In this document: piece by piece, positions 5,158-34,905 of the stretch
Layout of the letters: each line of letters starts with the position of its first letter
Position numbering within the stretch: position 1 is the first letter of the stretch
Origin: Candidatus Peribacteria bacterium
Lineage (GTDB): Bacteria; Patescibacteriota; Gracilibacteria; Peribacterales; Peribacteraceae
Assembly: GCA_023245765.1 (NCBI GenBank)
Contig: JAHFJP010000011.1
Coordinates: 1,763-37,020 of the forward strand
Direction of reading: 5' to 3'
DNA: 35,258 nucleotides
Notes under the pieces: model-generated
What the model was told of the DNA's origin: nothing
The model's database searches: none
Seen by the model: the letters and a program-made list of their open reading frames with translations, nothing else
Program-made: the position numbers and the translations under genes

Positions 5158-5337
5158 TCAGGCAGCATTGGAATTCCGCTTCTTTGCTTCCAACAATTCT
5201 TGAACAGATCGATATCCTTGTTCTTGGAGCCAAGATTCAAGAGAAGCATATGAACCATGTATCCAACGACTAAAACGTTGTGCTTCTTGATCCTTTTCTG
5301 GAGCTGCGTTATCGGTAGGCAATTTATCAGTACTCAT
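5158..5337 (-). CDS. Small hypothetical protein (59 aa)
   Basis: The predicted product starts MSTDKLPTDNAAPEKDQE, then has a compact helical part (SYASLESWLQEQGYRSVQELL) and ends KKRNSNAA. It is soluble and has no known family. I chose ATG at 5337 rather than the upstream GTG at 5343. A -10-like TAAGAT (5346-5351) sits 8 nt before it, matching the leaderless geometry of other genes here; the best -35 is weak (TGTTAA, 17 nt away). It is transcribed towards the tRNA-Pro gene. It could be a real small protein of this lineage; homologues would settle it. Confidence 0.5.
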   Translation of the reverse strand: MSTDKLPTDNAAPEKDQEAQRFSRWIHGSYASLESWLQEQGYRSVQELLEAKKRNSNAA

Positions 5338-5351
5338 ACGCACGTATCTTA

Positions 5352-5640
5352 ATACCTTCTTACGTGTCTTAACACCTTGGACTCAATGGCATTCGAAAAT
5401 ATGTAATAAAACAATTTTTATTTTTTTCTATTATCAAGTGAGTCGAATCAACAACTTTATGTACACATTTTTTATACAATATTTTCTAATGCTATTCGGC
5501 TTTTGATTGAATTTTATCAGATATAAATGGGCAAGGGATGACGTTGCCCAAAGAGTAGTGATCACCAGAGTTCGCCAACGATTACCTAGACACGATTTGA
5601 CAGTTCCGTACACTCCCCGCCCCTGTCCCCGGGGCTCTAG
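5352..5640. other. AT-rich intergenic stretch without convincing genes
   Basis: No supported gene is seen on either strand. Bases 5395-5525 are strikingly AT-rich (runs such as AATTTTTATTTTTTT), unlike the GC-rich neighbours. A 7-bp hairpin TGGGCAA/TTGCCCA lies at 5528-5550. A direct repeat TCTTAAYACCTT appears at about 5348 and 5368. The C/G-rich segment 5614-5636 contains CCCCGGGG. This may hold regulatory elements or a short non-coding RNA, but I cannot support one. Confidence 0.5.
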
Positions 5641-5641
5641 T

Positions 5642-5758
5642 ATGGTACCCGTGAAGCAATTCACATCCCTGGCTTCACTCGCGCACGTGCTCATGCACGC
5701 GCTTCTCATCACCGTCCTGATGATCAACATCGTGATGAGCCTCCCCGCCCTCAGCTGA
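5642..5758 (+). CDS. Possible 38-aa hydrophobic peptide
   Basis: ATG at 5642 opens a 38-codon frame with a charged start (MVPVKQF) and a single hydrophobic segment (HVLMHALLITVLMINIVMSL), ending LPALS then TGA. Base composition changes abruptly from the AT-rich gap to coding-like GC-rich sequence here. There is no Shine-Dalgarno and no clear -10 at the usual distance. It could encode a single-span membrane peptide or be chance. Low confidence. Confidence 0.25.
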   Translation: MVPVKQFTSLASLAHVLMHALLITVLMINIVMSLPALS

Positions 5759-5837
5759 AGGGAGACGAGTGAATCCCCCGCCCCATACAAAAACACACGA
5801 CCATCGCTCTGCGCTGGAGCCCTGCTCTGTATCTGCC

Positions 5838-6350
5838 TCACCGCTCAACCTCTTTGAGCAGACCTTTCGACTGCACCGGATCAGTATCATGAGGGCCAGA
5901 CTGATCCTCCAGCGTGACGAGAACATCGGTGTAGGCGCGCAGGTCTTTTGCGATTTCTGCGGTGGTCACATGCCGGACATCATTGAGAGGGTTCTGAAGA
6001 ATATCCAGACGAACACGTTCCTTCGAACCGGTCTTTGCGAGCCAGGCAACGAACTTCGACCCTTTGGGAGCAGGATGAATATTCAGATTCACCGTCACGA
6101 TCGTCGTTCCGTCGGCAAAAACATGAGACTGTGCAACGCCGTTTGCTTTGACCTTTTCATTTCCCCCCATCGCACCAAGGCCGAACCATACTTCTTTTCC
6201 ATGTTCGGGATGAATCACCTCCTTGCCTGCAGGCATCGTCACCTGGAGGATTTCATTGCCGATCGTCGCCTCCCGGCGCACCCGCTGCTTGGTGCAGGAT
6301 GCAAGGAACAGAACGCAGCAGAGGCCAATGACAACAGATGTGCGCTTCAT
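5838..6350 (-). CDS. Lipoprotein, anti-sigma-K (RskA)-like C-terminal fold possible
   Basis: A 170-aa protein with a lipoprotein signal (MKRTSVVIGLCCVLFLASC, Cys at residue 19). The mature domain is a small beta-sandwich with 'FADGTTIVTVNLNIHPAPKGSKF' and 'AWLAKTGSKERVRLDIL', and ends 'VLVTLEDQSGPHDTDPVQSKG'. That last pattern (VTLE..sgp..P...G) resembles the extracytoplasmic part of RskA-type anti-sigma factors, but no sigma factor is adjacent, so I do not assign that role. An extended -10 TGCTAGATT (6360-6368) lies 9 nt before the ATG, suggesting a very short leader. The gene lies 53 nt after the O-antigen-ligase-like gene, on the same strand. Confidence 0.8.
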   Translation of the reverse strand: MKRTSVVIGLCCVLFLASCTKQRVRREATIGNEILQVTMPAGKEVIHPEHGKEVWFGLGAMGGNEKVKANGVAQSHVFADGTTIVTVNLNIHPAPKGSKFVAWLAKTGSKERVRLDILQNPLNDVRHVTTAEIAKDLRAYTDVLVTLEDQSGPHDTDPVQSKGLLKEVER

Positions 6351-6359
6351 AGGGGCACG

Positions 6360-6368
6360 AATCTAGCA
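6360..6368 (-). promoter_or_regulatory. Extended -10 for the 5838-6350 lipoprotein gene
   Basis: The minus strand reads TGCTAGATT with the hexamer ending 9 nt before the start codon. It predicts a leader of only a few nucleotides. No good -35 was seen. Confidence 0.4.
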
Positions 6369-6403
6369 TCGCTGGGAGGCGACGGCAAACATTCGCTGGA
6401 CAA

Positions 6404-8395
6404 TCACCAGAGGAGCCCGGGAGGTCGCGAGACTGATGCCGCCCGTTCCTCGTCTGCATGTTCCAAAGCCTTTATCCGAAGTTCCTGCACGTCTTTCTCT
6501 TGGGGGTAGACAATGGAAAGCAATTTCCCCACCCGATCGAATGTCTCCACATTCGCCGAAAGGTCTATAAAGTGAGCATTGGCAAGAATCGCACTGCTGA
6601 ACTTGTCATAGATGTCGAGAACCTGATTTTTTTGAACAGAGAGCTGATCCACCTGTTTATCATGCTGGAGAATGCTGAGTATTCCCTCCAGAGGCTCCAA
6701 GTAATTGTATTTACCCCGTTCGAGAGCTGCGAAGTAGTACTGGAGAGCATCCTGCGAATTCCCCGATGCAAGAGCGGCGTCTCCCCGCAGAATCCACACA
6801 CGCGCGTCGTGACTGTTGACCTGCGCATAGTCATCGAACGCAGCGGATGCCATCGCCAAATCCCCCTTGCTCAGATACAACGCCCCTCTGCTCAAATGCA
6901 TATCACGCGAGAATATTTCACCACGCGCCGCATCGTACCATTCGAGGGCGCTACTCACATCCCCCGCCGCCTCGGCATGTCGTGCAAGCGAGGAAAGGAT
7001 CAGCATCCTTCCCTCGAGAATCGTGATGCACCCCAGGATGACCGCGATGACAATCTCCGTGATCCGGATCACATTCCGGCTTTTTGCCGAAGCTTCTGCA
7101 ACAGGCATCAGAGCGCCGAGCAGTATCCAGAAGGGCAAAACGATCCCGACAAACTGCAGATTGTAATCGATCAGATTATGGAGAAGGACCCCCGTCACCG
7201 CGATGAGTGCCGCAACCGTCAGGCCGGGAAATTGTTCCTCATTGCGCTTCGCATGACCGAGAATTCGCCGCAGCGCGGAAAGGAGAATGGACGCAAGAAT
7301 CGCCGCAAAGAGGATCGCCGCCGGCCAGCCGCGCTCCATCGCGAGTTTCAAGAAGACATTATGGGGATGGTCGGACGTGGCATAGACCGCGGTCTGCAGG
7401 CGCGGCTGAAGGAACCGGAAGCTGTAGGGACCGGACCCGATGAGTGGGCGCCGCAGCGAGAGCGTAAACGCCTGCTCCCAAAAATCGCGCCGCTCGGAAA
7501 TCGATGATGATCCTTCGGATGCGGTAAATGTCGCTTTGCTCATGACGGACTCGACATCGTGGAAGTGCGAGCGCAACGCATTCACGCCGCCAAAGACGGC
7601 AGCGGCGACGGCAGCCGTACCGATCAGAAAGAGCAGCCATCGTCTCCAGTGAATAGAGACGGCATGCCGGAGTGTCCTTGACCGGATGGCGTGAACGCAC
7701 AGGATCAGCATCCAGAAAACTGCCTGCACCAGGAAAACCAGAATCGACCCGCGAGAGTAACTGAGGAGCAAACATCCCAGCACCACGCCGGTCGAAACCA
7801 CTCTGATCGGGAGTCGGTAGCGCTCTGACCACAGCACGACGAGGGGCCAGCTAAGAAGCAGGAATTCGCCCCATGCATTGGGCCAGTAGTCGGTTACAAA
7901 GCGCCAGTCGAAGAATGTTCCCACCATGCGATTGACCGGCTGGAAAACATAGACCGCGATGCCGATCGCACACGCGATCAAGGTCGTCACCGCGATTATT
8001 CTGATGAACGAATGGATAAACCAATTATCGGAACCTGTACGGGCGTCCCGCCGAGACGCCCGCTGTACCACCCATAGGAATATCAACACACACGACACAT
8101 CCCTCAACACTTCGTCGAGACCGTAATTTCGCGTTTCAGAGAATATGAAACTGATCGTGGTCAGCAAGAGGAAGCCCATCAGCATTGCCCAAACCGGCAA
8201 CGGCGGACTCGATGCCTTCCGGTCATGCTCGTTTCGATGCAGTCCCCATGTTCCGAATGTGAGTAGAACCGCTGTGCCCGAAAGCAGCCATGTGGCATCG
8301 AGACTCTTGCCCCCTCTCCAAAGAATAGAGCCTGCGAGAAGGAGTAGGACGAGTCCTTCGAGGAGGAACCACACACGTTTTGGCTGCATCATCAT
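6404..8395 (-). CDS. O-antigen ligase/polymerase (Wzy_C) family membrane protein with TPR tail
   Basis: A 663-aa protein. About residues 1-440 form roughly 12 membrane helices. In the large periplasmic loop is the Wzy_C signature: 'SERRDFWEQAFTLSLRRPLIGSGP' followed by 'SDHPHNVFLKLAMERGWPA', with the conserved Arg, Gly and His-Asn. The C-terminal ~200 residues are TPR-like helices ('ALEWYDAARGEIF', 'GDLAMASAAFDDYAQVNSHDARVW', 'GNSQDALQYYFAALE'). Family members join or polymerise lipid-linked glycans, or transfer glycans to proteins, outside the membrane. No glycan-synthesis genes are adjacent, so the substrate is unknown. Three ATGs in tandem mark the start; I keep the first. A TGTCATACT extended -10 (8403-8411) ends 7 nt upstream. 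Confidence 0.9.
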   Translation of the reverse strand: MMMQPKRVWFLLEGLVLLLLAGSILWRGGKSLDATWLLSGTAVLLTFGTWGLHRNEHDRKASSPPLPVWAMLMGFLLLTTISFIFSETRNYGLDEVLRDVSCVLIFLWVVQRASRRDARTGSDNWFIHSFIRIIAVTTLIACAIGIAVYVFQPVNRMVGTFFDWRFVTDYWPNAWGEFLLLSWPLVVLWSERYRLPIRVVSTGVVLGCLLLSYSRGSILVFLVQAVFWMLILCVHAIRSRTLRHAVSIHWRRWLLFLIGTAAVAAAVFGGVNALRSHFHDVESVMSKATFTASEGSSSISERRDFWEQAFTLSLRRPLIGSGPYSFRFLQPRLQTAVYATSDHPHNVFLKLAMERGWPAAILFAAILASILLSALRRILGHAKRNEEQFPGLTVAALIAVTGVLLHNLIDYNLQFVGIVLPFWILLGALMPVAEASAKSRNVIRITEIVIAVILGCITILEGRMLILSSLARHAEAAGDVSSALEWYDAARGEIFSRDMHLSRGALYLSKGDLAMASAAFDDYAQVNSHDARVWILRGDAALASGNSQDALQYYFAALERGKYNYLEPLEGILSILQHDKQVDQLSVQKNQVLDIYDKFSSAILANAHFIDLSANVETFDRVGKLLSIVYPQEKDVQELRIKALEHADEERAASVSRPPGLLW
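8040..8062. repeat. Palindromic CGGGCGTC hairpin, copy inside a gene
   Basis: CGGGCGTC (8040-8047) and GACGCCCG (8055-8062) form a perfect 8-bp stem with a 7-nt loop within the coding sequence of the Wzy_C protein (encoding ASRRDARTG). The same GGGCGTC/GACGCCC stem recurs between groES and groEL (14453-14472). Confidence 0.6.
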
Positions 8396-8402
8396 GGAGG
8401 GA

Positions 8403-8411
8403 AGTATGACA
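8403..8411 (-). promoter_or_regulatory. Extended -10 for the Wzy_C/TPR gene
   Basis: The minus strand reads TGTCATACT, with the hexamer ending 7 nt before the first ATG. It is divergent from the strong promoter at 8453-8481. The -35 is not evident. Confidence 0.4.
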
Positions 8412-8452
8412 GGAACCTGCCGAAAACACCCATGATTGGCATTTATGCTACT

Positions 8453-8481
8453 TTGACTATTTGTTACAAATATTGTATAAT
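8453..8481 (+). promoter_or_regulatory. Strong sigma-70-type promoter, leaderless geometry
   Basis: TTGACT (8453-8458), 17-nt spacer, TATAAT (8476-8481). The expected transcription start (~8488-8490) coincides with the ATG at 8490, so the mRNA should have no 5' leader. Confidence 0.85.
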
Positions 8482-8489
8482 ATTACCAT

Positions 8490-8792
8490 ATGCAAACACA
8501 CTGTTCCTGTGGCGGGAAACGACGCCTCGCCCTCATCACTCTCTACGCGTCCCTCTGTTCTGTCTTCGCGCTGCAGCTTGCTGTGAGTGCAACCGGCGGA
8601 GTGCCCCCACTCGACGCAAGCGCCACGACGATGAGCGCTTTGCCGGGAGACCGCAACCTCACCGTTGAGGACCTGCGGTCGTACCAGGCACCGTCGGTCG
8701 CCCGTGCCAAGTCCAGGGCGAAGGCACGAACGGAACAGCTGATGCATGCCGCGCCAACGATGCGCAAACCTCAGGCGCGCACTGGCCGGTAA
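8490..8792 (+). CDS. Small exported basic protein of unknown function
   Basis: A 100-aa product beginning MQTHCSCGGKRRLALITLY with a hydrophobic signal segment (LALITLYASLCSVFALQLAV) and a likely cleavage near VSATG. The mature part is short, without Cys, and becomes strongly basic at the end (SVARAKSRAKARTEQ ... RKPQARTGR). I recognise no family. It has its own near-consensus promoter right at the ATG and its own terminator (8807-8839), so it is a complete single-gene unit and probably well expressed. An exported DNA- or surface-binding peptide is possible, but nothing proves it. Confidence 0.7.
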   Translation: MQTHCSCGGKRRLALITLYASLCSVFALQLAVSATGGVPPLDASATTMSALPGDRNLTVEDLRSYQAPSVARAKSRAKARTEQLMHAAPTMRKPQARTGR

Positions 8793-8806
8793 CAGCGTCG
8801 AAACAC

Positions 8807-8839
8807 AAAAACGCCCATTCAAAGCGAAGGGGCGTTTTT
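8807..8839 (+). terminator. Rho-independent terminator
   Basis: AAAAACGCCC (8807-8816) pairs with GGGCGTTTTT (8830-8839) over a 13-nt loop, 14 nt after the stop of the small exported protein gene. Confidence 0.85.
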
Positions 8840-8861
8840 CGATGAAGACTGCATGCGTGTC

Positions 8862-8870
8862 TGCTACGAT
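8862..8870 (+). promoter_or_regulatory. Extended -10 for tRNA-Leu(CAG)
   Basis: TGCTACGAT ends 8 nt before tRNA position 1, the same geometry as for tRNA-Pro. No good -35 was found. Confidence 0.4.
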
Positions 8871-8878
8871 CTGCCCGT

Positions 8879-8965
8879 GCCGATGTGGCGGAATTGGTAG
8901 ACGCGCACGCTTCAGGAGCGTGTATCCGCAAGGATGTGGAGGTTCGAGTCCTCTCATCGGCACCA
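8879..8965 (+). tRNA. tRNA-Leu(CAG)
   Basis: Acceptor GCCGATG/CATCGGC, anticodon stem CACGC/GCGTG with loop TTCAGGA (anticodon CAG), a long class II variable arm (TATCCGCAAGGATG region) and T-loop GGTTCGAGTCC. Discriminator A and CCA are encoded at 8962-8965. Confidence 0.97.
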
Positions 8966-8966
8966 T

Positions 8967-9042
8967 CCGGCTTCGTTCAGCTTCGCTGAACTACGCCGAG
9001 ATTGTTACCGGATGCCTCGGCGAAGTCCGCAGACGAAGCCGG
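8967..9042. repeat. Composite inverted repeat between tRNA-Leu and VOC gene
   Basis: CCGGCTTCGT (8967-8976) pairs with ACGAAGCCGG (9033-9042). ACTACGCCGAG (8990-9000) pairs, with one mismatch, with CTCGGCGAAGT (9016-9026). A perfect side hairpin TTCAGC-TTC-GCTGAA lies at 8976-8990. The element starts 1 nt after the tRNA CCA end and stops 1 nt before the stop codon of the convergent VOC gene. It could act as a bidirectional terminator or be a member of a dispersed repeat family. Confidence 0.7.
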
Positions 9043-9043
9043 G

Positions 9044-9439
9044 CTACTTCTTCGGCAGATCCTCCCAGAGCCCGATCACGTTACCCTCGCCGTCGGTCAC
9101 GTAGGCGTAGAAGCCCATGCCCATCATGTCCATTTTCGGCATGACGACTTTTCCTCCGGCTTTTTCGACCAGCTTCACCTTCTCGTCAATGGAAGAAACT
9201 TTGATGGCGAAAACCGGAGCCTTCACGTTGTCGTTACGCTTCATGATGCCACCATTGATCGCGCCGGGCTTCAGCGGCTCGCGGGTCTTTTCGTCAATCG
9301 GGGTCGTATGCACACCGATGTATGTTGATCCATCGGGCATCGGCCAGTCCTGCAGCTTCCATCCGAAAATGGAACCGTAGAAGCCACGGGCCTTCTCGAG
9401 ATCGTTGACCGGAATTTCGAAGTGAACAAGGGGATCCAT
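9044..9439 (-). CDS. VOC superfamily (glyoxalase/bleomycin resistance-like) protein
   Basis: A 131-aa single-domain protein of the vicinal oxygen chelate fold: 'MDPLVHFEIPVNDLEKARGF', then 'YGSIFGWKLQDW', 'YIGVHTTPID', 'VKLVEKAGGKVVMPK' and a final 'YVTDGEGNVIGLWE'. Candidate metal ligands are His7 in the first strand and the C-terminal Glu in GLWE; the second-module ligands are less clear. The family includes lyases, dioxygenases and binding proteins, so the substrate cannot be given. ATG 9439 is chosen over the TTG at 9451. A promoter TTGTCG-17-TATTGT ends 8 nt before the ATG, with no room for a Shine-Dalgarno. Confidence 0.9.
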   Translation of the reverse strand: MDPLVHFEIPVNDLEKARGFYGSIFGWKLQDWPMPDGSTYIGVHTTPIDEKTREPLKPGAINGGIMKRNDNVKAPVFAIKVSSIDEKVKLVEKAGGKVVMPKMDMMGMGFYAYVTDGEGNVIGLWEDLPKK

Positions 9440-9447
9440 AGGCGACA

Positions 9448-9476
9448 ACAATACGCGCGTGAATGATCATCGACAA
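9448..9476 (-). promoter_or_regulatory. Promoter of the VOC gene
   Basis: The minus strand has TTGTCG (9471-9476), a 17-nt spacer and TATTGT (9448-9453), ending 8 nt before the start codon. A leaderless or 1-2 nt leader transcript is predicted. Confidence 0.6.
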
Positions 9477-9527
9477 TAAAAATTCGTGGAGAATGTTCGT
9501 CATGAGCATCAGGGATGTGTGTCTTCG

Positions 9528-11192
9528 TTACTTCTTGCGGAGCGCTTCGAGTCTCTGCTTTGCAAACGCATTCTCTAGATCAAGCGTCAGAACGCGTTCG
9601 TAGGCGGCTATTGCATCAACAGGGTCGCTCCCCTTTTCGAGCGCGATGCCGAGGTTCAGGTACACCACAACGTTGACCGGATCGAGTTTCTGCGCGGCGA
9701 GGAGATGTTCAACGGCTTCTTCAATGCGTCCCGCATTGGTCAGGAGTCCGCCGAGATTGAGCTGCGCGTTGACGAATGTGGGCCGAAGTTCAACGGCCCG
9801 CGTAAATGCCGCAATCGCATCCTCAGAACGCTTTTCCCGCATCGCAGTGACGCCCACGTTGAACCACGCGTCACTGGTTCCGCCACCCTCCACCGCCGCC
9901 GCATACTCTCGCGCAGCTGCATCACTGTCGCCGATGCTGTCATAGTACGCGCCCAGATTATTGTGGGCGATAGCGGAATCGGGATAGTTGGCGAGCGCGG
10001 AGCGCAGCAACGTTTCGGTGTTCTTCCACACAAGCGACTGCAGCGCGGAGAGATTGCCGAGCAGCAGGACGATGGCGATCACGATCCCCTGCTTCACTCT
10101 CACCGGACCTTTCCATATGCGAAAGAGCCCAGCGGCGGCAACGAAGAAGATTCCGATCGCCGCCAGGTACACGTAGCGGTCGGAGGTGAGATAGAGCGCG
10201 GTGACCACGTCCTGGCCCTTCGCTGCAGTGAGGAAGCTCGGAGCGAGAAGCAGCAGAAACCATGCCCACCCAAAGGAGAGTGTGGGAAATCGTTTTCGCA
10301 GCATCCAGGCAGCAGCACTCGCAGCAAGAACGATGATCAGAGGAATCACGAGATCAATCCGGCCAATGGTCGCCTCACCCACAAAGGGATAGACGACGGA
10401 GTAGCCGAATGGCCAGACCAGATGCCAGAGAGAGAACACGACAGCCTTGAAGCCGACGAGAAGTTTTGCCGTCATCGTCTGCGAGCCGCCCGCTTTGCCG
10501 TACAGCGAGACGACGCCGAGGATCACGCTCAGCAGGAAGAACGGCGCCGTCGCAAGCAGAGAGTCTTTCGAGATTTTCCGCGTCCGATACCAGTCGGTCA
10601 TGACCAAAATCAGCGGCAGCGGCACGATGCTCACTTTCGATAGCAGTCCGCAGAGAAAACTGATGAGGCCTCCCGCGTACCAACCGCGATGCTTCACGTC
10701 TCTCCATTGAAGAAACAATCCGAGCGAGAGTAAAAAAAAGAACGACGAGAGAACGTCTTTACGCGCGCTCGCCCATGCGACGGCTTCCACATTGATCGGA
10801 TGTGCTGCAAAGAGGAGAGCCGTGAAAATGGCGACGGATTTTTTCTTGGAGAGCCAGAAAATGATCCATCCGACCAGAATCGCATTCCCCGCGTGGAGCA
10901 GGACGTTGGTCAGATGGTAGATAAAAGGATGCAGTCCTCCGATCAGGTAATTGATCTGGAAGCTGATGAACGTAAGCGGTACATAGAGATCGGGATCGTA
11001 GGTCGTGAATGCCTGCCAGATGTGCGAAAGAGAGAGTCCGTGACTAATCGGATTCTCCAGAATCAGCAAATTGTCGTCCCACAGGACAAAACCATTAAAG
11101 AGGGAGCGGGCATACATAACGAGCACCAGAAGGAAGATTCCCCCGCAGAAGAGAAGAGTTTCGTTAGTACGAACCTGTTGCTGAATTGTCAT
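9528..11192 (-). CDS. TMTC-like GT-C membrane protein with C-terminal TPR repeats
   Basis: A 554-aa protein. Residues ~10-380 hold about 10-11 membrane helices. Near the N-terminus is 'FNGFVLWDDNLLILENP', the acidic D-D motif typical of TMTC/PMT-like GT-C glycosyltransferases. Further on come 'AAHPINVEAVAWASARKDVLS', 'WHLVWPFGYSVVYP' and 'LTSDRYVYLAAIG', all characteristic of the TMTC group. The last ~160 residues are four or more TPR units ('AIAHNNLGAYYDSIGDSDAAAREY', 'AWFNVGVTAMREKRSEDAIAAF'). Eukaryotic TMTCs are O-mannosyltransferases acting on secreted proteins. A protein glycosyltransferase role here is inference. I set the start at ATG 11192 (MTIQQQ) because the upstream extension to 11282 overlaps the divergent gene and its promoter. 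Confidence 0.85.
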   Translation of the reverse strand: MTIQQQVRTNETLLFCGGIFLLVLVMYARSLFNGFVLWDDNLLILENPISHGLSLSHIWQAFTTYDPDLYVPLTFISFQINYLIGGLHPFIYHLTNVLLHAGNAILVGWIIFWLSKKKSVAIFTALLFAAHPINVEAVAWASARKDVLSSFFFLLSLGLFLQWRDVKHRGWYAGGLISFLCGLLSKVSIVPLPLILVMTDWYRTRKISKDSLLATAPFFLLSVILGVVSLYGKAGGSQTMTAKLLVGFKAVVFSLWHLVWPFGYSVVYPFVGEATIGRIDLVIPLIIVLAASAAAWMLRKRFPTLSFGWAWFLLLLAPSFLTAAKGQDVVTALYLTSDRYVYLAAIGIFFVAAAGLFRIWKGPVRVKQGIVIAIVLLLGNLSALQSLVWKNTETLLRSALANYPDSAIAHNNLGAYYDSIGDSDAAAREYAAAVEGGGTSDAWFNVGVTAMREKRSEDAIAAFTRAVELRPTFVNAQLNLGGLLTNAGRIEEAVEHLLAAQKLDPVNVVVYLNLGIALEKGSDPVDAIAAYERVLTLDLENAFAKQRLEALRKK

Positions 11193-11233
11193 CACGGAGG
11201 AACGGTAATGGAGGAATGGACGCAGGCAAAGCA

Positions 11234-11261
11234 TTGCTTCTGCAAAGAAATGTTGTATTGT
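11234..11261 (+). promoter_or_regulatory. Promoter of the P-loop NTPase gene
   Basis: TTGCTT (11234-11239), 16-nt spacer, TATTGT (11256-11261). The -10 ends 8 nt before ATG 11270, predicting a leaderless transcript. Confidence 0.55.
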
Positions 11262-11269
11262 ATCTCTTG

Positions 11270-12607: not shown

Positions 12608-12612
12608 AGCAG

Positions 12613-12900: not shown

Positions 12901-12909
12901 AGAAACATT

Positions 12910-13971: not shown

Positions 13972-14004
13972 AGGAATGTTAAATTGCCATAAAATACTGC
14001 TAGT

Positions 14005-14025
14005 GTCAACGATTCCGTCGTTGAC
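14005..14025. promoter_or_regulatory. Inverted repeat upstream of groES
   Basis: GTCAACGA (14005-14012), TTCCG, TCGTTGAC (14018-14025) is a perfect 8-bp palindrome. It overlaps the groES -35 (TTGACG) on the plus strand and contains most of a TTGACA on the minus strand. It is a candidate binding site for a second regulator of the divergent pair. Confidence 0.5.
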
Positions 14026-14443: not shown

Positions 14444-14452
14444 CCCATTCGC

Positions 14453-14472: not shown

Positions 14473-14500
14473 CTACATTTCTCTATTACCCTCCTCTTCT

Positions 14501-16232: not shown

Positions 16233-16400
16233 ATGAGTGATAAAACACTCTTATGCCTCGCATTCGCGGGGATTCAAGTCCTCTCTGGATTGCTCATGTG
16301 GGCAATGAGAGGTCCGGATCTCCGCACCTTCCTCAGAGCCAAGGGAATCGGCGCCGGCAGCTCCCTCGTGGCAGCGGCTGTATGCCACTACCTTGGCTGA
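16233..16400 (+). CDS. Small membrane protein (55 aa)
   Basis: The frame encodes MSDKTLLCLAFAGIQVLSG, a hydrophobic helix up to about residue 24, a polar stretch (RGPDLRTFLRAKGIG) and a second hydrophobic segment (GSSLVAAAVCHYLG) to the end. A Shine-Dalgarno GTGAGG lies 6 nt upstream of the ATG, rare for this window. The gene has its own extended -10 promoter, a 5' hairpin and a terminator (16407-16433), so it is an independent transcription unit between groEL and the DUF4173-like gene. I know no family. The packaging makes a real gene likely. Confidence 0.7.
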   Translation: MSDKTLLCLAFAGIQVLSGLLMWAMRGPDLRTFLRAKGIGAGSSLVAAAVCHYLG

Positions 16401-21599: not shown

Positions 21600-21605
21600 T
21601 ACAAT
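21600..21605 (+). promoter_or_regulatory. -10 element of folD
   Basis: TACAAT ending 6 nt before ATG 21612, predicting a leaderless transcript. A TTGCTA lies 21 nt upstream, too far for a normal -35. Confidence 0.4.
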
Positions 21606-26014: not shown

Positions 26015-26042
26015 CCTCCCCCTCCGGGGGAGGGGTGTTTTG
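26015..26042 (+). terminator. purFD terminator
   Basis: CCTCCCCC (26015-26022), loop TCC, GGGGGAGG (26026-26033), then GGTGTTTTG. A strong GC stem with a short T-run, 34 nt after the purD stop. Confidence 0.75.
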
Positions 26043-26058
26043 TATGTTGTTTTTGTTT

Positions 26059-26064
26059 TACAAT
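26059..26064 (+). promoter_or_regulatory. -10 element of the BT1-type transporter gene
   Basis: TACAAT ending 8 nt before ATG 26073. The upstream T-rich stretch offers only weak -35 matches. Confidence 0.4.
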
Positions 26065-26072
26065 TGCTCCCA

Positions 26073-27398
26073 ATGCGCCTCGACCTGACCAGAATTCTGA
26101 TCCCGTTTGTCTACTTCATTGCTGGAGCGACGTCACTCGCCGGTGTCGCAACGACGTTCTACTTTAAAGATGATCTGCACCTGAGCATTCAGCAGGTCCA
26201 GTTCCTCGGATCCATCGCGATTATCCCGTGGAGCGTCAAACCGATCTATGGTCTGGTCTCCGATGTCCGCCCTGTCTTCGGATTGCGACGGAAACCGTAC
26301 CTGTTCCTCGCCGGACTCCTCGGTTCAGCGGGCTACTTTTCGCAAGCGACATGGGTGAGTGGATTCTGGGGCGCGGCCTTTGCGGCGATTACATCGGCGC
26401 TGGGATTCGCACTGGCGGACGTGATCGTCGATGGCATCGTCGCGGAGAAGAGCAAGACGCAGAAAGAGGCGGGAAGACTCCAGAGCATCTGCCGCGGCGC
26501 GCTCCTCGCCGGAGCAATTGCGGTCTCGTACGCGTCGGGAATCCTCGTGGAAGCGATCGGTGCACGGAACGTGTTCTTCATCACCGGTACTCTGCCGCTT
26601 GTGACCGTCATCTTCTCCCTCCTGGTTCTTGAAGGACCACTGCCCGAATCGGACTTTTCGATCCGGAAAGTCTGGAAGCAATTCAAGGGCGCCCTGAGCC
26701 CCGGACTCCTCTGGAGCGCCGCATTCCTGTTCGTGTGGCGTGCGACACCGACCTCCGGCGGCGCGTTCAATTACTTCCTGATCGATGAACTGCATTTCAC
26801 GCCCGAATTCTTCGGCCGCCTGGCGTTCATCAGTCATGTAACCGGCATCATCGGCGTCGTGGTCTTCCGCAAACTGCTCCTGAACGTGCCGCTGAAAAAA
26901 CTCTTCTTCTGGCTGATGGTTGCGAGCGTCGTTCTGTCGCTGCCTTCCATCGGACTGCTCTACAAATGGTATGACCTCATCGGTGTGAGCCCCCAGTTCT
27001 TCGCGATGGCCGATACGCTCATCGGCGGCATGCTCTTTGAGCTCGCCTTCCTGCCGCTCCTCGTGCTGGTGGCCCGCGTGTGCCCCAAAGGCATCGAAGC
27101 GACGATGTTCGCCGTTCTCGCGAGTTTGATGAACATCGGTCTCAGCGTCAGTGACCTTGGTGGCGCGGCTTTGACGACATACTTCGGTGTCCACTCCGCG
27201 ACGGAAACTCTTGCCGCAGATTATTCGAAGCTCCACATCGTCATGTGGATCGCGATCCTCTCGTCCTTCCTCCCATTGCCGCTATTGCCCTTCCTGCCCG
27301 AAACGCGGACGACGGACGATTTGGGAACGCAGGCGGCTCCGTCGATCATGACGCCGATGCTCACACCGATGGAAACAACAAAGGAGGAGATTGCTTGA
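26073..27398 (+). CDS. BT1/FBT-type folate-biopterin transporter (MFS)
   Basis: A 441-aa protein with 12 predicted membrane helices. The N-terminal part 'LSIQQVQFLGSIAIIPWSVK' and 'PIYGLVSDVRPVFGLRRKPY' matches the BT1/FBT signature (P-W-x-x-K-P-x-Y-G-x-x-S-D ... RR-x-Y). 'ALADVIVDGIVAEKSK' is also typical, with the D-x-x-x-D around helix 4. Known members move folates or pterins by proton symport in protists, plants and cyanobacteria. ATG 26073 is chosen because of the -10 element 8 nt upstream. It ends in TGA overlapping the next ATG. Closeness to folD and purF-purD supports a role in folate uptake, but the substrate is inferred. Confidence 0.85.
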   Translation: MRLDLTRILIPFVYFIAGATSLAGVATTFYFKDDLHLSIQQVQFLGSIAIIPWSVKPIYGLVSDVRPVFGLRRKPYLFLAGLLGSAGYFSQATWVSGFWGAAFAAITSALGFALADVIVDGIVAEKSKTQKEAGRLQSICRGALLAGAIAVSYASGILVEAIGARNVFFITGTLPLVTVIFSLLVLEGPLPESDFSIRKVWKQFKGALSPGLLWSAAFLFVWRATPTSGGAFNYFLIDELHFTPEFFGRLAFISHVTGIIGVVVFRKLLLNVPLKKLFFWLMVASVVLSLPSIGLLYKWYDLIGVSPQFFAMADTLIGGMLFELAFLPLLVLVARVCPKGIEATMFAVLASLMNIGLSVSDLGGAALTTYFGVHSATETLAADYSKLHIVMWIAILSSFLPLPLLPFLPETRTTDDLGTQAAPSIMTPMLTPMETTKEEIA

Positions 27399-28186: not shown

Positions 28187-28196
28187 TCAATTATTT
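28177..28196. repeat. 20-bp perfect palindrome across two convergent stop codons
   Basis: AAATAATTGA/TCAATTATTT with no spacer. It contains the TGA stop of the lipoprotein gene (28184-28186) and the TAA stop of prfA (28191-28193, minus strand). It could serve both transcripts as a weak terminator or be a protein-binding site. Confidence 0.7.
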
Positions 28197-29255
28197 CCTC
28201 TCCAGTGAAGCCAACTTCTGCTCTTCATCCTTCTCTTTCAGCGTCTCGAAAATCTTGCCCGCATTGCCTTCCATGATCGACGGCAGATTGCTGAAGTTCT
28301 CGCCGATGCGGTGATCAGTCACGCGGTCCTGCGGAAAGTTATAGGTCCGAATTTTTTCCGAGCGATCCCCCGAACCGATCTGGCCGGAGCGCATCTCCCC
28401 GCGTTCCTTCGCAAGCTTTTCCTGCTTCGCCGCATAGAGGCGTGACCGCAGCAAACTCATCGCGAGCGTCTTGTTCTTGAGCTGGCTGCGCTCCGTCTGG
28501 CACGCGACGACGGTGTTCGTCGGCAGATGTGTGATGCGCACGGCCGTCTCGACTTTGTTCACGTTCTGTCCTCCGGCTCCCCCGCTGCGGTAGGTGTCGA
28601 TCTTCAAATCATTGGGATTGATGACGATATCGACCTCTTCGGCTTCGGGGAGAATCGCCACCGTCACGGTCGAGGTGTGAATGCGGCCTTTGGCTTCCGT
28701 CGCCGGTATGCGCTGGACACGGTGCACGCCGGACTCGTATTTGAGCTTGCCGTAGACGCCCGAGCCCTCGATCTTGCACGAGACCTCTTTGATACCGCCC
28801 GATTCCGCGTCGGACTTGTCCATAAGTTCGACCTTCCATCGCTGCGCTTCGGCGTAGCGCAGGTACATGCGGAAGAGTTCCGCACCGAACAGTGCCGCCT
28901 CCTCGCCGCCGGCACCGGCACGCACCTCGAGGATCACGTTCTTATCGTCATCGGGATCCTTCGGGACCAGAAAGGCCTTCATGCGCTTTTCCAGATCGGG
29001 AAGCTTTTGCCTGGCAACCACTGCGTCTTCCTCGGCCATCGCTTTGAGTTCGGGATCGTTTTTGATCTTGTCGACCTCCGCTATGGCCTTCTGTGCATTG
29101 TCATACTCCTGCAGAAGCTCGATCAACGGATCAAGCTCCTTGATGCGCTTGCCGATACGCGCAAGTTCTTTGTGGTCACCGTGCACGGCGGTATCGCCGA
29201 GCTTCGCCTGAAGGTCGGCATGTTCGCGCGCAAGCTGACGGAGTTTTTCAATCAC
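28191..29255 (-). CDS. prfA: Peptide chain release factor 1
   Basis: A 354-aa RF1 that reads UAA and UAG and releases the finished protein. It contains the GGQ loop ([18 protein letters not shown]) and the RF1-type '[15 protein letters not shown]' (RF2 has a different 'RRHTSF..V'). It also has '[12 protein letters not shown]' and '[14 protein letters not shown]'. The start is GTG at 29255. A -10-like TAGTCT ends 6 nt before it, with GTGACA 18 nt further, so a leaderless mRNA starting on the G of GTG is predicted. The gene is full-length and its 3' end is 4 nt from the convergent lipoprotein gene. Confidence 0.97.
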
Positions 29256-29261
29256 TCGATT

Positions 29262-29291
29262 AGACTACAGAAAAAGATGCTTCATTGTCAC
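29262..29291 (-). promoter_or_regulatory. prfA promoter
   Basis: On the minus strand GTGACA (29286-29291), 18-nt spacer, TAGTCT (29262-29267), ending 6 nt before the GTG start. The -35 overlaps the stop of the upstream DUF5671 gene. Confidence 0.55.
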
Positions 29292-30358: not shown

Positions 30359-30364
30359 ACACGC

Positions 30365-30373
30365 ATCGTAGCA
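30365..30373 (-). promoter_or_regulatory. Extended -10 of the DUF5671 gene
   Basis: The minus strand reads TGCTACGAT, the hexamer ending 6 nt before ATG 30358. It is divergent from the mnmA promoter. Confidence 0.45.
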
Positions 30374-30386
30374 TGAGACGTTCGAT

Positions 30387-30413
30387 TTGAAGATATCTTA
30401 CTTCTTGTACACT
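30387..30413 (+). promoter_or_regulatory. mnmA promoter
   Basis: TTGAAG (30387-30392), 15-nt spacer, TACACT (30408-30413), ending 7 nt before ATG 30421. The spacer is short, so the -35 is uncertain; the -10 is plausible. Confidence 0.45.
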
Positions 30414-30420
30414 ACTTCAT

Positions 30421-31515
30421 ATGCGTATTCTTGTCGCTCTCTCCGGCGGAATCGATTCGAGCACTGTTGCTCATCTTTTGGCTCAACAGGGCCATGAACT
30501 GATCGGCGTACGGTTTGGTCTGTGGAGCGATCCGCTGGCCCCGGCTCTCGCGGAAATCCTGCCAAGCAAATGCTGCAATGCGCAGTCCGCTGCACGAACG
30601 CAGCACGTCGCGAAGCAGTTGAAGATCCCCCTCCACGTGATCGACCTTAGTGAGGAATTCAAACGGCACGTGGTCGATCCGTTCCTGGAAGGATACAGGC
30701 AGGGACTTTCACCAAACCCGTGCATCGGCTGCAACCGGACGATCAAGTTCGGGAAACTTCTCGAGTTGATGAAGGAATTTGGGTGCGAAAAGCTCGCCAC
30801 CGGCCACTACGCGCGCGTCGCACGGGAGAGACTTCCGGATGGCAGCGAGCGTCATCTGCTCCTCGAGGCAGTGGATCACATGAAGGATCAGAGCTACTAC
30901 CTGTACGGACTGACGCAGGAGCAATTGAGTAGCGTGATCTTCCCACTCGGAGCGATGCTGAAGAGCGAGGTATTTTCATTAGGTCGCGCCTTCGGCGTGC
31001 CGTTCGACGAGCAGTATCGTGAGAGTCAGGATCTGTGTTTTTTCCCCGAGAAGACGCCGCAGGAATTTTTGAAGCGGCACCTCCGCGATGATCTCCAGCC
31101 CGGCGAGATCGTCAGGCGTGACGGCACGATCGTCGGTAGTCACGATGGCCTGCCTCTCTACACGATCGGTCAGCGGCGCGGACTGAAGATCGGCGGTTTA
31201 AAAATTCCTTTGGAAGTCGTCTCGAAGGATCCCGCGCGCAATCAATTGATTGTCAACGAACAGGGACGTGAGCGCACATCATCTGTTCAACTCAAAGAGC
31301 TACGATGGATTTCATGGAAACCGGAGGAAGATTGCCCGGCACCATTTGACTGCCGGACACGCTCGTTGAGTGACCGGTTGCATGGGTCGATCCGCTTCGC
31401 GAATGATCACGGGATTTTCGATTTTGACCGGCCACAACCACCCCAGTCTCCGGGGCAGTCGTTGGTGCTGTACAGGGGGGAAGAAGTGGTAGGTGGGGGG
31501 GTGATCTGCCACTGA
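30421..31515 (+). CDS. mnmA: tRNA-specific 2-thiouridylase MnmA
   Basis: A 364-aa enzyme that puts sulfur on U34 of tRNA-Lys, -Glu and -Gln. The PP-loop is LVALSGGIDSST near the N-terminus. The two catalytic Cys are in 'SPNPCIGCNRTIKF' and 'ESQDLCFFPE'. 'ATGHYARV', 'DQSYYLYGLTQEQL' and 'YTIGQRRGL' are the standard family blocks. The gene is full-length and ends in a G-rich stretch. It heads a short intergenic gap to the calpain-like gene. Start ATG 30421 is next to a -10 element and lacks a Shine-Dalgarno. Confidence 0.97.
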   Translation: MRILVALSGGIDSSTVAHLLAQQGHELIGVRFGLWSDPLAPALAEILPSKCCNAQSAARTQHVAKQLKIPLHVIDLSEEFKRHVVDPFLEGYRQGLSPNPCIGCNRTIKFGKLLELMKEFGCEKLATGHYARVARERLPDGSERHLLLEAVDHMKDQSYYLYGLTQEQLSSVIFPLGAMLKSEVFSLGRAFGVPFDEQYRESQDLCFFPEKTPQEFLKRHLRDDLQPGEIVRRDGTIVGSHDGLPLYTIGQRRGLKIGGLKIPLEVVSKDPARNQLIVNEQGRERTSSVQLKELRWISWKPEEDCPAPFDCRTRSLSDRLHGSIRFANDHGIFDFDRPQPPQSPGQSLVLYRGEEVVGGGVICH

Positions 31516-31520
31516 AAACG

Positions 31521-31529
31521 TGGTATAAT
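31521..31529 (+). promoter_or_regulatory. Extended -10 promoter of the calpain-like gene
   Basis: TGGTATAAT: consensus -10 with TGn extension, ending 25 nt before ATG 31555. No good -35; no Shine-Dalgarno in the ~18-nt leader. Confidence 0.65.
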
Positions 31530-31554
31530 AATCGGAATTCATTCATACCAACAT

Positions 31555-33558
31555 ATGGATCCACAATTGAACGGAGGTGAACAGCCACTGTTGAAACGGG
31601 CACTCAGCAATAATGACGTGAACCCGGCATCTGGCGAACGGCAGGTACCCCATCCGGAGACGACCAACAAGATGGCTGTTGTGAGAGCTGACCAGACGTT
31701 GGAAAAAACAACAAAAGAAATTCAACCCTTCACGCCCGTGAATGCACCGTCGGGAACTCCGGCGGAAATTCACAAGCGCGTTGCCGCATTGGGTGAAGAC
31801 CTTTTGCAGCGGATGGAACGCTCAACGGCTGCAGGTCAACGATATGCAAAAAATCCTGGTGCACGCGGTGAATATATTCAGGCTCTCCAGGAGGAACGCA
31901 AAGCGATCCTGGATGGCGATACTCAGCTGAATGGTCATCCATTGGCGAGTCTCATACGCGGCACGCACCGGAGCCGCGTGAACATGATTGAGCAGACGTT
32001 CAAGCAACTTGGATACACTCAACCGGAAGCAAAAACAGAAACGGAGAGGAAAGAAGATCCAGCACTCAAGCGGGCAGCCGACAGAGTGAAAGATGAATAT
32101 GACAAATATGAAGCGGCGAAAAGGCTCAAGCAACAAACGGAAGACAACCCTGATGAAAAAATCCTGAAACAGGAATTCCAGGATCTCCGCGACCGGATCG
32201 ACAGCAGAATCAAAGCGACAAATGCGAACATCCGGTACCTGGAGAGGGAGATCCAGAATCTTGGAAGGATCGGACGCTTCGTTGCGCGATTCACGGGAAC
32301 GCTCCGGGGCATGCGACTGTCACTGGAAGCGGATCAGAAATTACTCAACTCGTACGGAAAAATCCGATCGCAACTCGATACGGTTGCGCGGCTCAACCCG
32401 AAACAACGGCGGGAGGGATTCCAGAGACTCTGGAAGGATCTCGGCGCAACAAGGCCAGATTATCGTGATGCCAATGCGCAGCTCGCGAGGTCCGTCGATA
32501 CCATTGATACGTATGATTACTTCAACGTTATCACGACCCCACAACCGCGGGCGCCCTTTGTTGCCGGACAGGAGGTATACACACTGACCGAACGCTCGAC
32601 CGTTGAGCGCGGATGGCGCGTGATGTCCGTCTCGGAAAACCGCATCGCCGTGCGGCCGATCACCGGCGGTGCATTACGGGTTCTGACGCCGCAACAGGTC
32701 TGGCACGTCGGCGAAATCGATGGCGCACGGATGCTGCCACGCAACGTCCCGCGACACGTGCAGGCCGAAATGCAGAACCGCCGCAACACACTCATGCAGA
32801 GGTACGCACGTATCACAGAGGAGGAGTACCACCAGCTCTTCGACGGGCCCCTCCAGCAGCAGAATGTCGGCAACTGCTACCTGATCGCCGCATTCAACAG
32901 TCTCCGCCATTCACCCCACGCCGAAGTGATTTTGAGAACATCTGTGCAACGACAAGGAACAGGATTCATCGTGAAGATCCCCCTCGGCAATGCCGACGGC
33001 ACACCCATTGCCGTTTCGGCGCAAGACATGCAGGCGATGACTATTCCTACGGACTCTCATGGAAGAACGCAACTGCAGCCGGTGAACGCAGCGCCCGGAT
33101 GGGTGGCGCTCGAAGCGGCATTCATCATCAAACGGTTTGGCCGTCTGGACCGACGGGCGGCTGAAGGCGGATTGGGCGAAGCGGCGCTTTCTGCTCTGAT
33201 GGGTAATGCAGTACAGACTCTGAGAATTCGCAACAATTTCGCGACATTGAGCGAAGATGCACGATCAAGAGAGCAGGCAATCGCACTACTCAATTCGTTC
33301 TCACCCGAACGGCACATACTCACAGCATCTTCTCGTGTTTTCCAAGATGAACGGAGTAGTTTTAGGACAGGTCCGCACACGTTCCTCACAAAGCATGCTT
33401 ATTCCATCTTCCGAGTAGACCCAGGAAGCAGACAGATTATTCTTGCAAATCCTCATAATACAGCGATACATATACAGGTAACCTACGACGAATTTCTCAC
33501 TTCATTCAGAGGGATCGGTATCGCCACGGTGAATGATGCGCGAATTTTCCGGGTCTAA
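31555..33558 (+). CDS. Calpain-like (C2 family) cysteine peptidase with coiled-coil N-terminus
   Basis: A 667-aa protein with no signal peptide or membrane span. Residues ~1-60 are low-complexity; ~60-320 are charged helices and coiled coil ('KILKQEFQDLRDRIDSRIKA'). A small beta-rich part around 330-395 ('FVAGQEVYTLTERSTVERGW') precedes the catalytic domain. The active site is recognisable: 'QQQNVGNCYLIAAFNSL' with Cys441, 'TFLTKHAYSIFRV' with His614 and 'ILANPHNT' with Asn632, matching calpain's QxxxGxCxxxA, HAY and N-P motifs. Trp after the Cys is replaced by Tyr. Substrate and trigger are unknown; no EF-hand is seen. It lies 72 nt upstream of a sortase gene on the same strand, with a separate promoter between them. 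Confidence 0.82.
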   Translation: MDPQLNGGEQPLLKRALSNNDVNPASGERQVPHPETTNKMAVVRADQTLEKTTKEIQPFTPVNAPSGTPAEIHKRVAALGEDLLQRMERSTAAGQRYAKNPGARGEYIQALQEERKAILDGDTQLNGHPLASLIRGTHRSRVNMIEQTFKQLGYTQPEAKTETERKEDPALKRAADRVKDEYDKYEAAKRLKQQTEDNPDEKILKQEFQDLRDRIDSRIKATNANIRYLEREIQNLGRIGRFVARFTGTLRGMRLSLEADQKLLNSYGKIRSQLDTVARLNPKQRREGFQRLWKDLGATRPDYRDANAQLARSVDTIDTYDYFNVITTPQPRAPFVAGQEVYTLTERSTVERGWRVMSVSENRIAVRPITGGALRVLTPQQVWHVGEIDGARMLPRNVPRHVQAEMQNRRNTLMQRYARITEEEYHQLFDGPLQQQNVGNCYLIAAFNSLRHSPHAEVILRTSVQRQGTGFIVKIPLGNADGTPIAVSAQDMQAMTIPTDSHGRTQLQPVNAAPGWVALEAAFIIKRFGRLDRRAAEGGLGEAALSALMGNAVQTLRIRNNFATLSEDARSREQAIALLNSFSPERHILTASSRVFQDERSSFRTGPHTFLTKHAYSIFRVDPGSRQIILANPHNTAIHIQVTYDEFLTSFRGIGIATVNDARIFRV

Positions 33559-33613
33559 GAGCAGGAACAGGAAAACCTGTGTCATCGTTTTACTTTCTGC
33601 AAAGCCATTTTTC

Positions 33614-33622
33614 TGGTATACT
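33614..33622 (+). promoter_or_regulatory. Extended -10 promoter of the sortase gene
   Basis: TGGTATACT with the hexamer ending 8 nt before TTG 33631. A weak TTTCTG lies 17 nt upstream. It predicts a 0-2 nt leader ahead of a TTG start. Confidence 0.55.
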
Positions 33623-33630
33623 CTTAAGAT

Positions 33631-34905
33631 TTGTTGAACCCTCCTTTCGACCACCGGGCCAGCTACGACGACGACGGGAATATCATTCTCCCGTCCATGC
33701 ACAATGCGCACATGCGCGACGACGACGTTGACGTTGAACCGATGCAGGGATTCATCGCGGAAACGCGGAGTGACTCCGACGACATCGTCGAATGGATCAT
33801 CACGGAAGACGCGCCGGCCGATCTCCACCCCGTCGAAACAATCGCTGCGCCACGCTTTGTTCCCGGTGAACCAACGATCCCCTTCTCCCTTCACGTACGG
33901 GAGAGAATTGTGGGACTCCGAACGATGACACGCGGAGCAGTGCGCGAAGGTGCGCGGCAGTACAAGGTGAGCATCTCCTCTGGCATTCCACTCCTGCAGC
34001 AGATCACAGAAGACACACTGAAATTTCTGCGGATCGTCTGGGATTTCCTGGCACAGCCAGTATGGGTCCCCGGGCGTAAGCGGGAGATCAAACAGTACAG
34101 CCGGGGCACCCTCTTCCTCCTCGACATTGTCCGCTTCGGCGGAACCTTCACCGTAATCTTCCTCGCGCTCTTCGTCGCGCTCAACTACGACAGCTTCTGG
34201 CAGATCACGCGAAGCAAAATCACAATGGTCCTCAGTAGTCCCACAATCGAAGCCCCGGAGTCACAAATCGATAACGCCATGATCGAAACGCTGAAGCAGA
34301 CGTCTGCGGTGTCGCAAGACGGCCGCGAGCGCGGAGAACTGCTGAGTTTTCTGCCCAACGTCGGTCCTCCCGATAACCGCATTCTGATCCCAAAACTCAA
34401 GCTCAATGTACCGCTCGTGCAGCCGCCGCTTGAATCACTCCTACGCCAGGATTGGGCACAGGTGGAAGAGGACATCCAGACGGCACTCGCAGACGGTGTG
34501 GTGCACTACCCGGGAACCGCAAAGCCCGGCCAGGCGGGCAACTTCTTCGTGACCGGTCACAGCTCCTACTACCCGTGGGCACCGGGACACTACAAAACCG
34601 TCTTCGCGCGACTCCATGACCTCAACCCCGGCGACGAGTACTGGGTTTACTACAAAGGCGACCGTCATCGCTACATTGTGACCGAAAAGAAAGAAGTGAG
34701 CCCGGGTGACATCACCGTGCTGGATCAGCCCGAAGCAAAACGCATCTCGACATTGATGACCTGCACGCCCGTCGGAACCACCTTACGCCGCCTCGTCGTC
34801 ATCGCGCAGGAGGTCAATCCGCTCACGGGTGAGGTCCTCGCGGTCGGTCAGAGGGGGGAGAAGGGTGTGACGCCAAAGGTGAAGCTGGAGGCGTTGCCGA
34901 TTTAG
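33631..34905 (+). CDS. Sortase family transpeptidase with long N-terminal region
   Basis: A 424-aa protein. About residues 1-165 are cytoplasmic, acidic at first ('DDDGNIILPSMHN', 'MRDDDVDVEPM'). One membrane span follows (FGGTFTVIFLALFVALNY) and then an extracytoplasmic sortase domain. The catalytic His310 is in 'FFVTGHSSYYPW', Cys378 in 'STLMTCTPVGTTLRRLVV' and the Arg just after it (386/387). Sortases cut a C-terminal sorting signal and link the protein to a surface amine. The TTG start is chosen because it lies 8 nt after the -10 element; a downstream ATG (33697) is the alternative. No substrate with an LPxTG-like tail was found in this window. The stop codon begins a G-rich tract. Confidence 0.92.
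   Translation: MLNPPFDHRASYDDDGNIILPSMHNAHMRDDDVDVEPMQGFIAETRSDSDDIVEWIITEDAPADLHPVETIAAPRFVPGEPTIPFSLHVRERIVGLRTMTRGAVREGARQYKVSISSGIPLLQQITEDTLKFLRIVWDFLAQPVWVPGRKREIKQYSRGTLFLLDIVRFGGTFTVIFLALFVALNYDSFWQITRSKITMVLSSPTIEAPESQIDNAMIETLKQTSAVSQDGRERGELLSFLPNVGPPDNRILIPKLKLNVPLVQPPLESLLRQDWAQVEEDIQTALADGVVHYPGTAKPGQAGNFFVTGHSSYYPWAPGHYKTVFARLHDLNPGDEYWVYYKGDRHRYIVTEKKEVSPGDITVLDQPEAKRISTLMTCTPVGTTLRRLVVIAQEVNPLTGEVLAVGQRGEKGVTPKVKLEALPI

Follow-up and report, generated by a model that had tools for sequence, protein, structure and literature searches.

Promoter -10 elements next to start codons and an altered anti-Shine-Dalgarno tail suggest largely leaderless initiation in a Peribacteraceae-like lineage

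The window, meaning here the whole stretch of 35,258 nucleotides that was analysed, has a G+C content of 55.7% and comes from a source genome of 1,447,856 bases in 71 contigs. Its RF1 gene (prfA, 28191-29255, minus strand) encodes a protein 66% identical to RF1 of Candidatus Peribacteraceae bacterium STB_179; among the best 80 loci, the next ones after STB_179 belonged to other phyla, at about 50% identity, and the source family is on this ground named Peribacteraceae-like here. A sequence-only reading of this DNA had listed twelve start codons with a -10-like hexamer 6-9 nt away. When read by eye, all twelve hexamers were present as written and at that distance. On the plus strand, they are TATAAT (8476-8481) at -14 of ATG 8490, TATTGT (11256-11261) at -14 of ATG 11270, TACAAT (21600-21605) at -12 of the folD ATG 21612, which is predicted to be leaderless, TACAAT (26059-26064) at -14 of the folate transporter ATG 26073, TACACT (30408-30413) at -13 of the mnmA ATG 30421, and TATACT (33617-33622) at -14 of the TTG 33631 of a sortase-domain gene, for which a caller using coding signal only favours ATG 33697. 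On the minus strand, TAAGAT (5346-5351) is -10-like at -14 of ATG 5337, the start of a 59-codon ORF, TAGATT (6360-6365) is -10-like at -15 of ATG 6350 with a low matrix score of 3.5, and CATACT (8403-8408) is -10-like at -13 of ATG 8395 and is not among the learned-matrix scores above 3. The same strand carries TATTGT (9448-9453) at -14 of ATG 9439 of a glyoxalase-like gene, TAGTCT (29262-29267) at -12 of the prfA GTG 29255, and TACGAT (30365-30370) at -12 of ATG 30358 of a DUF5671 gene. The four quoted -35 hexamers, those of the 8490, 9439, 11270 and 29255 promoters, were also found with the spacers given for them; that of 8490 is TTGACT (8453-8458, plus strand), at a spacer of 17. One further hexamer, absent from the earlier twelve, is the -10-like TACCCT (14487-14492, plus strand) at -14 of the groEL ATG 14501, which was retrieved with the learned matrix and is not a strict hit. 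The 62-bp divergent intergenic region between the DUF5671 gene and mnmA (30359-30420) holds two predicted leaderless promoters pointing apart, so that their footprints must overlap.

Several of these starts are supported by homology. FolD (21612), RF1 (29255, a GTG), MnmA (30421) and the glyoxalase-like protein (9439) match their family profiles in alignments that begin among the first residues on either side, and the RF1 of STB_179 also aligns from its GTG, with CATAAT at -12. The start of the folate transporter at 26073 is less certain, the profile match beginning only at residue 12 and at profile position 33. No Pfam match was obtained for the 8490 (100 codons) and 6350 (170 codons) products, nor for that of 11270, which was searched only from residue 82 on. 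With coding-only starts and the strict hexamer defined below, 6 of the 22 leading genes of the window matched (28 genes called). The presence of a -10 element next to the start codon in the window is confirmed, and it extends beyond the window.

For the genome-wide test, 20 stretches were taken together with the window, giving 411,534 bases (28% of the genome). Genes were called with a purpose-built simple caller which picked starts by coding potential and start-codon type and left the upstream signal unused; its version 1 called 340 genes, and its version 2 called 329, 239 of them leading, i.e., with an opposite-strand neighbour or a gap of more than 50 nt. A hexamer was counted as strict if it read TANNNT and shared one or more of its three central bases with TAA. 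The motif search that the sequence-only reading had proposed for aligned start upstreams gave, on this 28% of the genome, a sharp -10 peak centred at -12. The strict hexamer was found at -14 to -12 in 63 of the 239 leading genes (26%), while 60 dinucleotide shuffles averaged 7.9 and never exceeded 17. At -12 alone, 33 of the 239 carried it, whereas positions from -60 to -26 had 2.8 each on average (Poisson p about 6e-24). With caller version 1, the peak was likewise at -12, in 26 of 132 genes with an opposite-strand neighbour, whereas each position between -60 and -16 had 0-4; internal in-frame starts (n=4981) showed no hexamer peak. An EM run seeded with TATAAT learned a TATACT-like motif, placed at -17 to -10 in 0.43 of the leading genes (n=239) and in 0.48 of those of seven family relatives (n=196); in the source genome, the highest single position outside this interval was -32, at 0.05, and EM in control windows gave no such motif. 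EM was unstable on Deinococcus deserti, Escherichia coli and some single genomes. The excess of learned-matrix hits over a shifted null was, by threshold, 22-32% at called starts and 29-45% with alternative starts allowed. In the whole source genome, TATAAT-N6-ATG with at most one mismatch occurred 237 times versus 95 for the reversed pattern; of the 66 matches within the sample, 25 fell at called starts, although such starts make up only 266 of the 14403 ATGs. About half of the leading genes have no detectable hexamer. Internal genes of the source genome had one in 9 of 38 cases, which looked like promoters within tandem genes; hexamers at internal genes were nevertheless given no weight, since 7 of the 15 found in the source genome and seven relatives overlap the upstream stop codon.

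We then looked at MnmA, whose start is fixed by homology and which is present in 70 of 74 family genomes. The upstream regions came from the best-scoring 30 of the 70 matches, which is not a random choice, and 29 were read (L187 was left out). A strict hexamer was located at -14 to -12 in 15 of the 29 family loci and at -15 or -16 in four more, for a chance expectation of about 3% taken from shuffles of source-genome leading genes. By eye, these upstream sequences were otherwise mostly dissimilar, save in a few close relatives.

The hexamers also have the character of promoters. Among the 74 hexamers at -15 to -11, at least four of six matches to TTGACA were found in 17, 7 and 6 at spacers of 16, 17 and 18, respectively, and in 0-4 at each of nine other spacers from 12 to 23; in this tally, one hexamer may be counted at two spacers. 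The 99 control hexamers at -60 to -25 displayed no -35 spacer peak, with 3-9 per spacer. TGn before the hexamer was modestly commoner, at 18 of 74 versus 16 of 99 in the control. A pyrimidine at -1 was present in 69% of cases in the source genome versus 60% in the E. coli sample and 61% in D. deserti, which is not far above. These data support the view that the hexamers with -35 partners are real sigma-70-type promoters. With a hexamer at -12 to -7, transcription would be expected to begin with the start codon's first nucleotide, and the earlier proposal that transcription begins at or within about 3 nt of the start codon is backed by -35 elements at the right spacing.

Shine-Dalgarno (SD) sequences had been described as nearly absent, with exceptions at 2995, 16233 and 27398. 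The near absence held: SD-like words were detected at 17 of 303 starts versus 21 of 303 in the control, as compared with 26 of 74 starts versus 5 in E. coli. Of the exceptions, that at 2995 is doubtful as an SD start and would more simply be a leaderless gene starting at the alternative ATG 2986, with TACAAT (2994-2999, minus strand) at -13 overlapping the 2995 start codon. The start at 16233 opens a 55-codon ORF with TATAAT about 43 nt upstream. At 27398, the start codon overlaps the upstream stop by one base and AAAGGAGGAG lies within the upstream gene; this looks like coupling, with a possible surviving SD-coupled start. SD pairing was next calculated as the energy of the -20 to -4 region against each genome's own 16S tail, with -60 to -44 as the control window, which for close genes may fall in coding sequence. 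In the source genome (n=303), pairing was weaker than control, at -1.91 against -2.69. The same held for a pool of seven family relatives (n=275; -2.27 against -2.85) and for a pool of seven other members of the class (n=296; -1.27 against -2.48), whereas the comparison genomes gave -5.47 vs -2.50 for E. coli (n=74) and -4.92 vs -3.52 for a D. deserti plasmid (n=97). At tightly spaced internal genes, no SD enrichment was detected in the source genome (-2.11 vs -3.30, n=38); in contrast, the internal genes of the D. deserti plasmid reached -6.93 vs -3.97 (n=19), so that SD pairing at internal genes is enriched in the mixed SD and leaderless system of the Deinococcus type and not here. A raw excess of AGGAGG-N6-ATG in the source genome (587 vs 435 reversed) was rejected as SD enrichment because only 1 of 132 matches in the sample falls at a called start, which implies that the raw count reflects coding sequence.

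To follow the architecture in other Patescibacteria, a panel of genomes was chosen by raw TATAAT-N6-ATG counts, 16S tails and contig sizes; its non-family part is not random, and the raw counts across 286 genomes shift with base composition. The hexamer peak was found in seven of seven sampled family relatives, with 4-10 matches each (p from 4e-9 to 0.0014); in one of them, G341, the maximum over 60 shuffles was the same as the observed count, 9. Among seven other class members, two were marginal (G227, p 0.03; G040, p 0.05) and five not significant. Elsewhere in the phylum, six of seven genomes had p < 0.01 (G074, G140, G297, G241, G062 and G104), the highest shuffle equalling the observed count in G241 and G104. 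EM gave TATAAT in G297, G241 and G062, and G297 and G104 use SD as well. In G099, the peak was not significant (p 0.17) and SD enrichment was absent too. The controls gave 7 of 76 for the D. deserti plasmid (p 7e-5), weaker than the source genome, and 3 of 43 for E. coli (p 0.08). Judging from sequence statistics, we take the architecture to be real and spread over the whole of the genome sample, and all family members that were sampled share it. With six of seven genomes outside the class positive, some of them picked for high raw counts, leaderless promoters may be frequent in a wider range of Patescibacteria. The class genomes outside the family that have no SD enrichment and little or no peak indicate that loss of SD use needs no leaderless promoters. 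Same-strand gaps of at most 20 nt made up 21% in the source genome, 31% in the family, 44% in the class, 60% in E. coli, but also 28% in D. deserti; the samples are small, and the few short gaps are consistent with fewer operons.

The 16S 3' end could be read in 59 of the 74 family genomes, giving 60 tails, and CCUCC was kept in 3 of the 60. The commonest forms were CACTTCC (25), CATCTCC (18) and CATTTCC (8). In one bin, G017 (C11 and C14), two different tails, CACTTCC and CATTTCC, were found, corresponding either to two operons or to contamination. The source-genome tail is CATCTCC, without CCUCC; its 16S gene is cut by a contig end, with 118 bases preceding the matched stretch, and this is presumably why an Rfam search of the source genome did not detect 16S. 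This tail, AUCUCCUU, retains CUCCUU and can still pair with AAGGAGAU, so that the source anti-SD is altered, not abolished. Outside the family, a hand count over 136 listed genomes found 9 without CCTCC, of which 6 belong to the same class (11 listed) and 3 lie elsewhere (125 listed); this survey started from 286 genomes, of which 126 had no match and 11 others matched without being on the list. Within the class, the loss of SD use appears to reach further than the erosion of the anti-SD. A Patescibacteria genome outside the class apparently has no anti-SD at all (GGAACACTTAAACAAG, G099:C5:20725-20786). The stretch just after the tail was conserved beyond the canonical 16S end, with TTACCAGG in 57 of 60, and the family tail can fold on this trailer. 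At one position of the stem, 36 of the 60 tails have a T-A pair and 22 a C-G pair, while in 2 the pair is broken, these being counts of sequences and not of independent events; such covariation indicates that anti-SD changes are matched by trailer changes. Since many other Patescibacteria have similar complementary stretches after an intact CCTCC, the anti-SD/trailer stem probably predates anti-SD erosion. GAUCA, the Era-binding word at the 16S 3' end (PMC10582724), was kept in none of the 60 family tails, which have GAACA (53), GAACG (4), GAATA (2) or GAACT (1); the tail at G000:C16:7732-7793 (minus strand) is one without it.

The promoter position, the -35 partner, the missing SD enrichment and the 16S changes were established as sequence statistics. 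From them we infer the actual 5' ends, the translation of leaderless mRNAs and a causal order in which SD use was lost first and anti-SD erosion came later. For a large fraction of the genes, transcription would depend on a sigma-70-type promoter with its -10 element 6-8 nt ahead of the start codon. RNA polymerase would begin on that codon's first base, or no more than about 3 nt away, yielding a leaderless mRNA, which the ribosome would bind via the 5'-terminal start codon and the initiator tRNA. SD pairing would no longer be detectably used for start selection, and the 16S tail would thereby be free to change, with CCUCC lost across most of the family. We consider it highly probable that, in this Peribacteraceae-like lineage, SD-independent and largely leaderless initiation has relaxed selection on the 16S tail. 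The stronger statement, that the whole family gave up SD:anti-SD selection and relies mainly on leaderless mRNAs while its tail evolves under trailer pairing, is in our judgement evenly balanced.

The earlier suggestion that leaderless translation is a main initiation mode is a fair one, with 43-48% of leading genes by EM and 22-45% by the shifted-null excess; 'predominant' would be too strong. The erosion of the 16S anti-SD itself (3 of 60 with CCUCC) was out of sight of the sequence-only reading. It is also conceivable, if rather doubtful, that leaderless mRNAs serve a minority of genes and that most genes are leadered and SD-less by virtue of unstructured leaders, as in Bacteroidota and perhaps in the rest of the class. 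This would fit the strict hexamer being found in only 26% of leading genes, as well as the seven class relatives that have no SD enrichment and mostly no peak. However, the EM fraction of 43-48% and the alternative-start estimate of 29-45% were reached despite start-calling errors, and outside -17 to -10 no single position in the source genome exceeded 0.05 (at -32) by EM.

It is hardly credible that the hexamers arise spuriously from AT-rich start regions or from a biased choice of starts. Intergenic DNA is indeed rich in weak -10-like words (2.8 at each position over 239 genes), but this explanation is contradicted by the dinucleotide shuffles, the control windows and the 4981 internal starts, as well as by the coding-only starts, the homology-fixed MnmA starts and the -35 spacing. 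A re-coded SD system, in which mRNAs pair with the changed 16S tail, could draw on the CUCCUU retained in AUCUCCUU, on AAAGGAGGAG at 27398 and on four small relatives slightly richer in SD-like words than control (G016, 5 of 37 vs 3; G021, 3 of 46 vs 1; G011, 5 of 44 vs 3; G004, 3 of 13 vs 0). We regard it as very improbable, because own-tail pairing at -20 to -4 was weaker than control both in the source genome (n=303) and in the seven relatives (n=275). Relaxed selection on the 16S tail under largely leaderless initiation is the reading we prefer. If the family-wide statement is true, the family offers a natural series of steps in anti-SD loss: CACCTCC, CATCTCC, CACTTCC, CATTTCC and CGTTTCT. 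In a lineage with an eroding anti-SD and no detectable SD use, it becomes possible to study what ordinarily keeps the 16S tail in place, and how initiation manages when the anti-SD is gone. Gene finders that score SD sequences may misplace starts in these genomes, for which a -10 element at -12 would be a better start signal.

In bacteria, leaderless initiation is usually described alongside SD initiation. In the TA-led genes of Zheng et al. 2011 (PMC3160421), TANNNT lies about 12 bp before the start, significantly so versus dinucleotide shuffles; according to the accessible text, such genes exceed 20% in Actinobacteria and Deinococcus-Thermus, with leaderless genes widespread and not dominant. 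The TANNNT peak near -12 above dinucleotide shuffles is common to both data sets, whereas here no SD enrichment accompanies the leaderless genes. The same accessible text makes no mention of TM7, candidate division or Patescibacteria. For Deinococcus-Thermus, the sections available of PMC12340547 report a -10 motif 6-7 bp before the ORF, most commonly TACACT; in D. radiodurans, -10-adjacent ORFs amount to nearly one third of genes, and a second motif is an RBS (GGAG). The place of the motif is alike in our genomes, the Peribacteraceae-like motif being TATACT-like, but these genomes have an altered 16S anti-SD and no enrichment in SD pairing. Flavobacterium has SD-less mRNAs and, as far as the consulted part of PMC6847099 goes, its anti-SD is kept, unlike here. 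Table 4 of PMC10783764 includes Ca. Peribacter riflensis (7% SD) as SD-scarce without CCUCC, and also lists Absconditabacteria, Campbellbacteria and Wolfebacteria. That table has one Peregrinibacteria genome, and 'promoter' is absent from the main text of the paper; the present data concern 59 genomes of one family, together with promoters of the leaderless type and a 3' stem that covaries. In the available excerpts, PMC12641178 mentions YchF with leaderless mRNA, and in PMC6851277 'leaderless' appears only in the reference list. PMC10783764 was the single open-access hit for Peregrinibacteria and Shine-Dalgarno and, among the papers listed on Peregrinibacteria, Gracilibacteria and Absconditabacteria, the one that contains 'leaderless', and no open-access account of the anti-Shine-Dalgarno in Patescibacteria was found, an absence which is weak evidence. 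The leaderless promoter architecture is of a known kind (Deinococcus, Actinobacteria) and the loss of CCUCC in one Peribacter is already published; a description of this architecture across a family whose anti-SD is eroding and whose SD use is undetectable was not found in the open-access literature, which is likewise weak evidence of novelty.

Finally, the initiation and ribosome machinery was surveyed. Loss of IF3 was rejected as a cause, since 58 of 59 relatives keep a match (it was missed in G030); this retention weighs against the preferred reading. An rpsA match was found in 58 of 59, none over the curated cut-off, and those of G002 and G028 are weak. bS21, searched with a 55-position profile, matched in 41 of 144 genomes, mostly weakly, with 11 over the cut-off and none in the source genome. 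For Era, 51 of 59 passed the cut-off when same-frame stretches were summed; among the matches listed, a full-profile single match was present in 3 of 59 (G037, G048 and G057), none in the family, and we read the other matches as EngA-type double-domain proteins. Most class members were also without a full-profile Era match among the matches listed, so that Era loss may permit the change of the tail and would not explain it. An rpsA-type match in the class member G046 (G046:C23:9207-10256) contains 36 in-frame TGA codons, which suggests that this genome has TGA reassigned to an amino acid.
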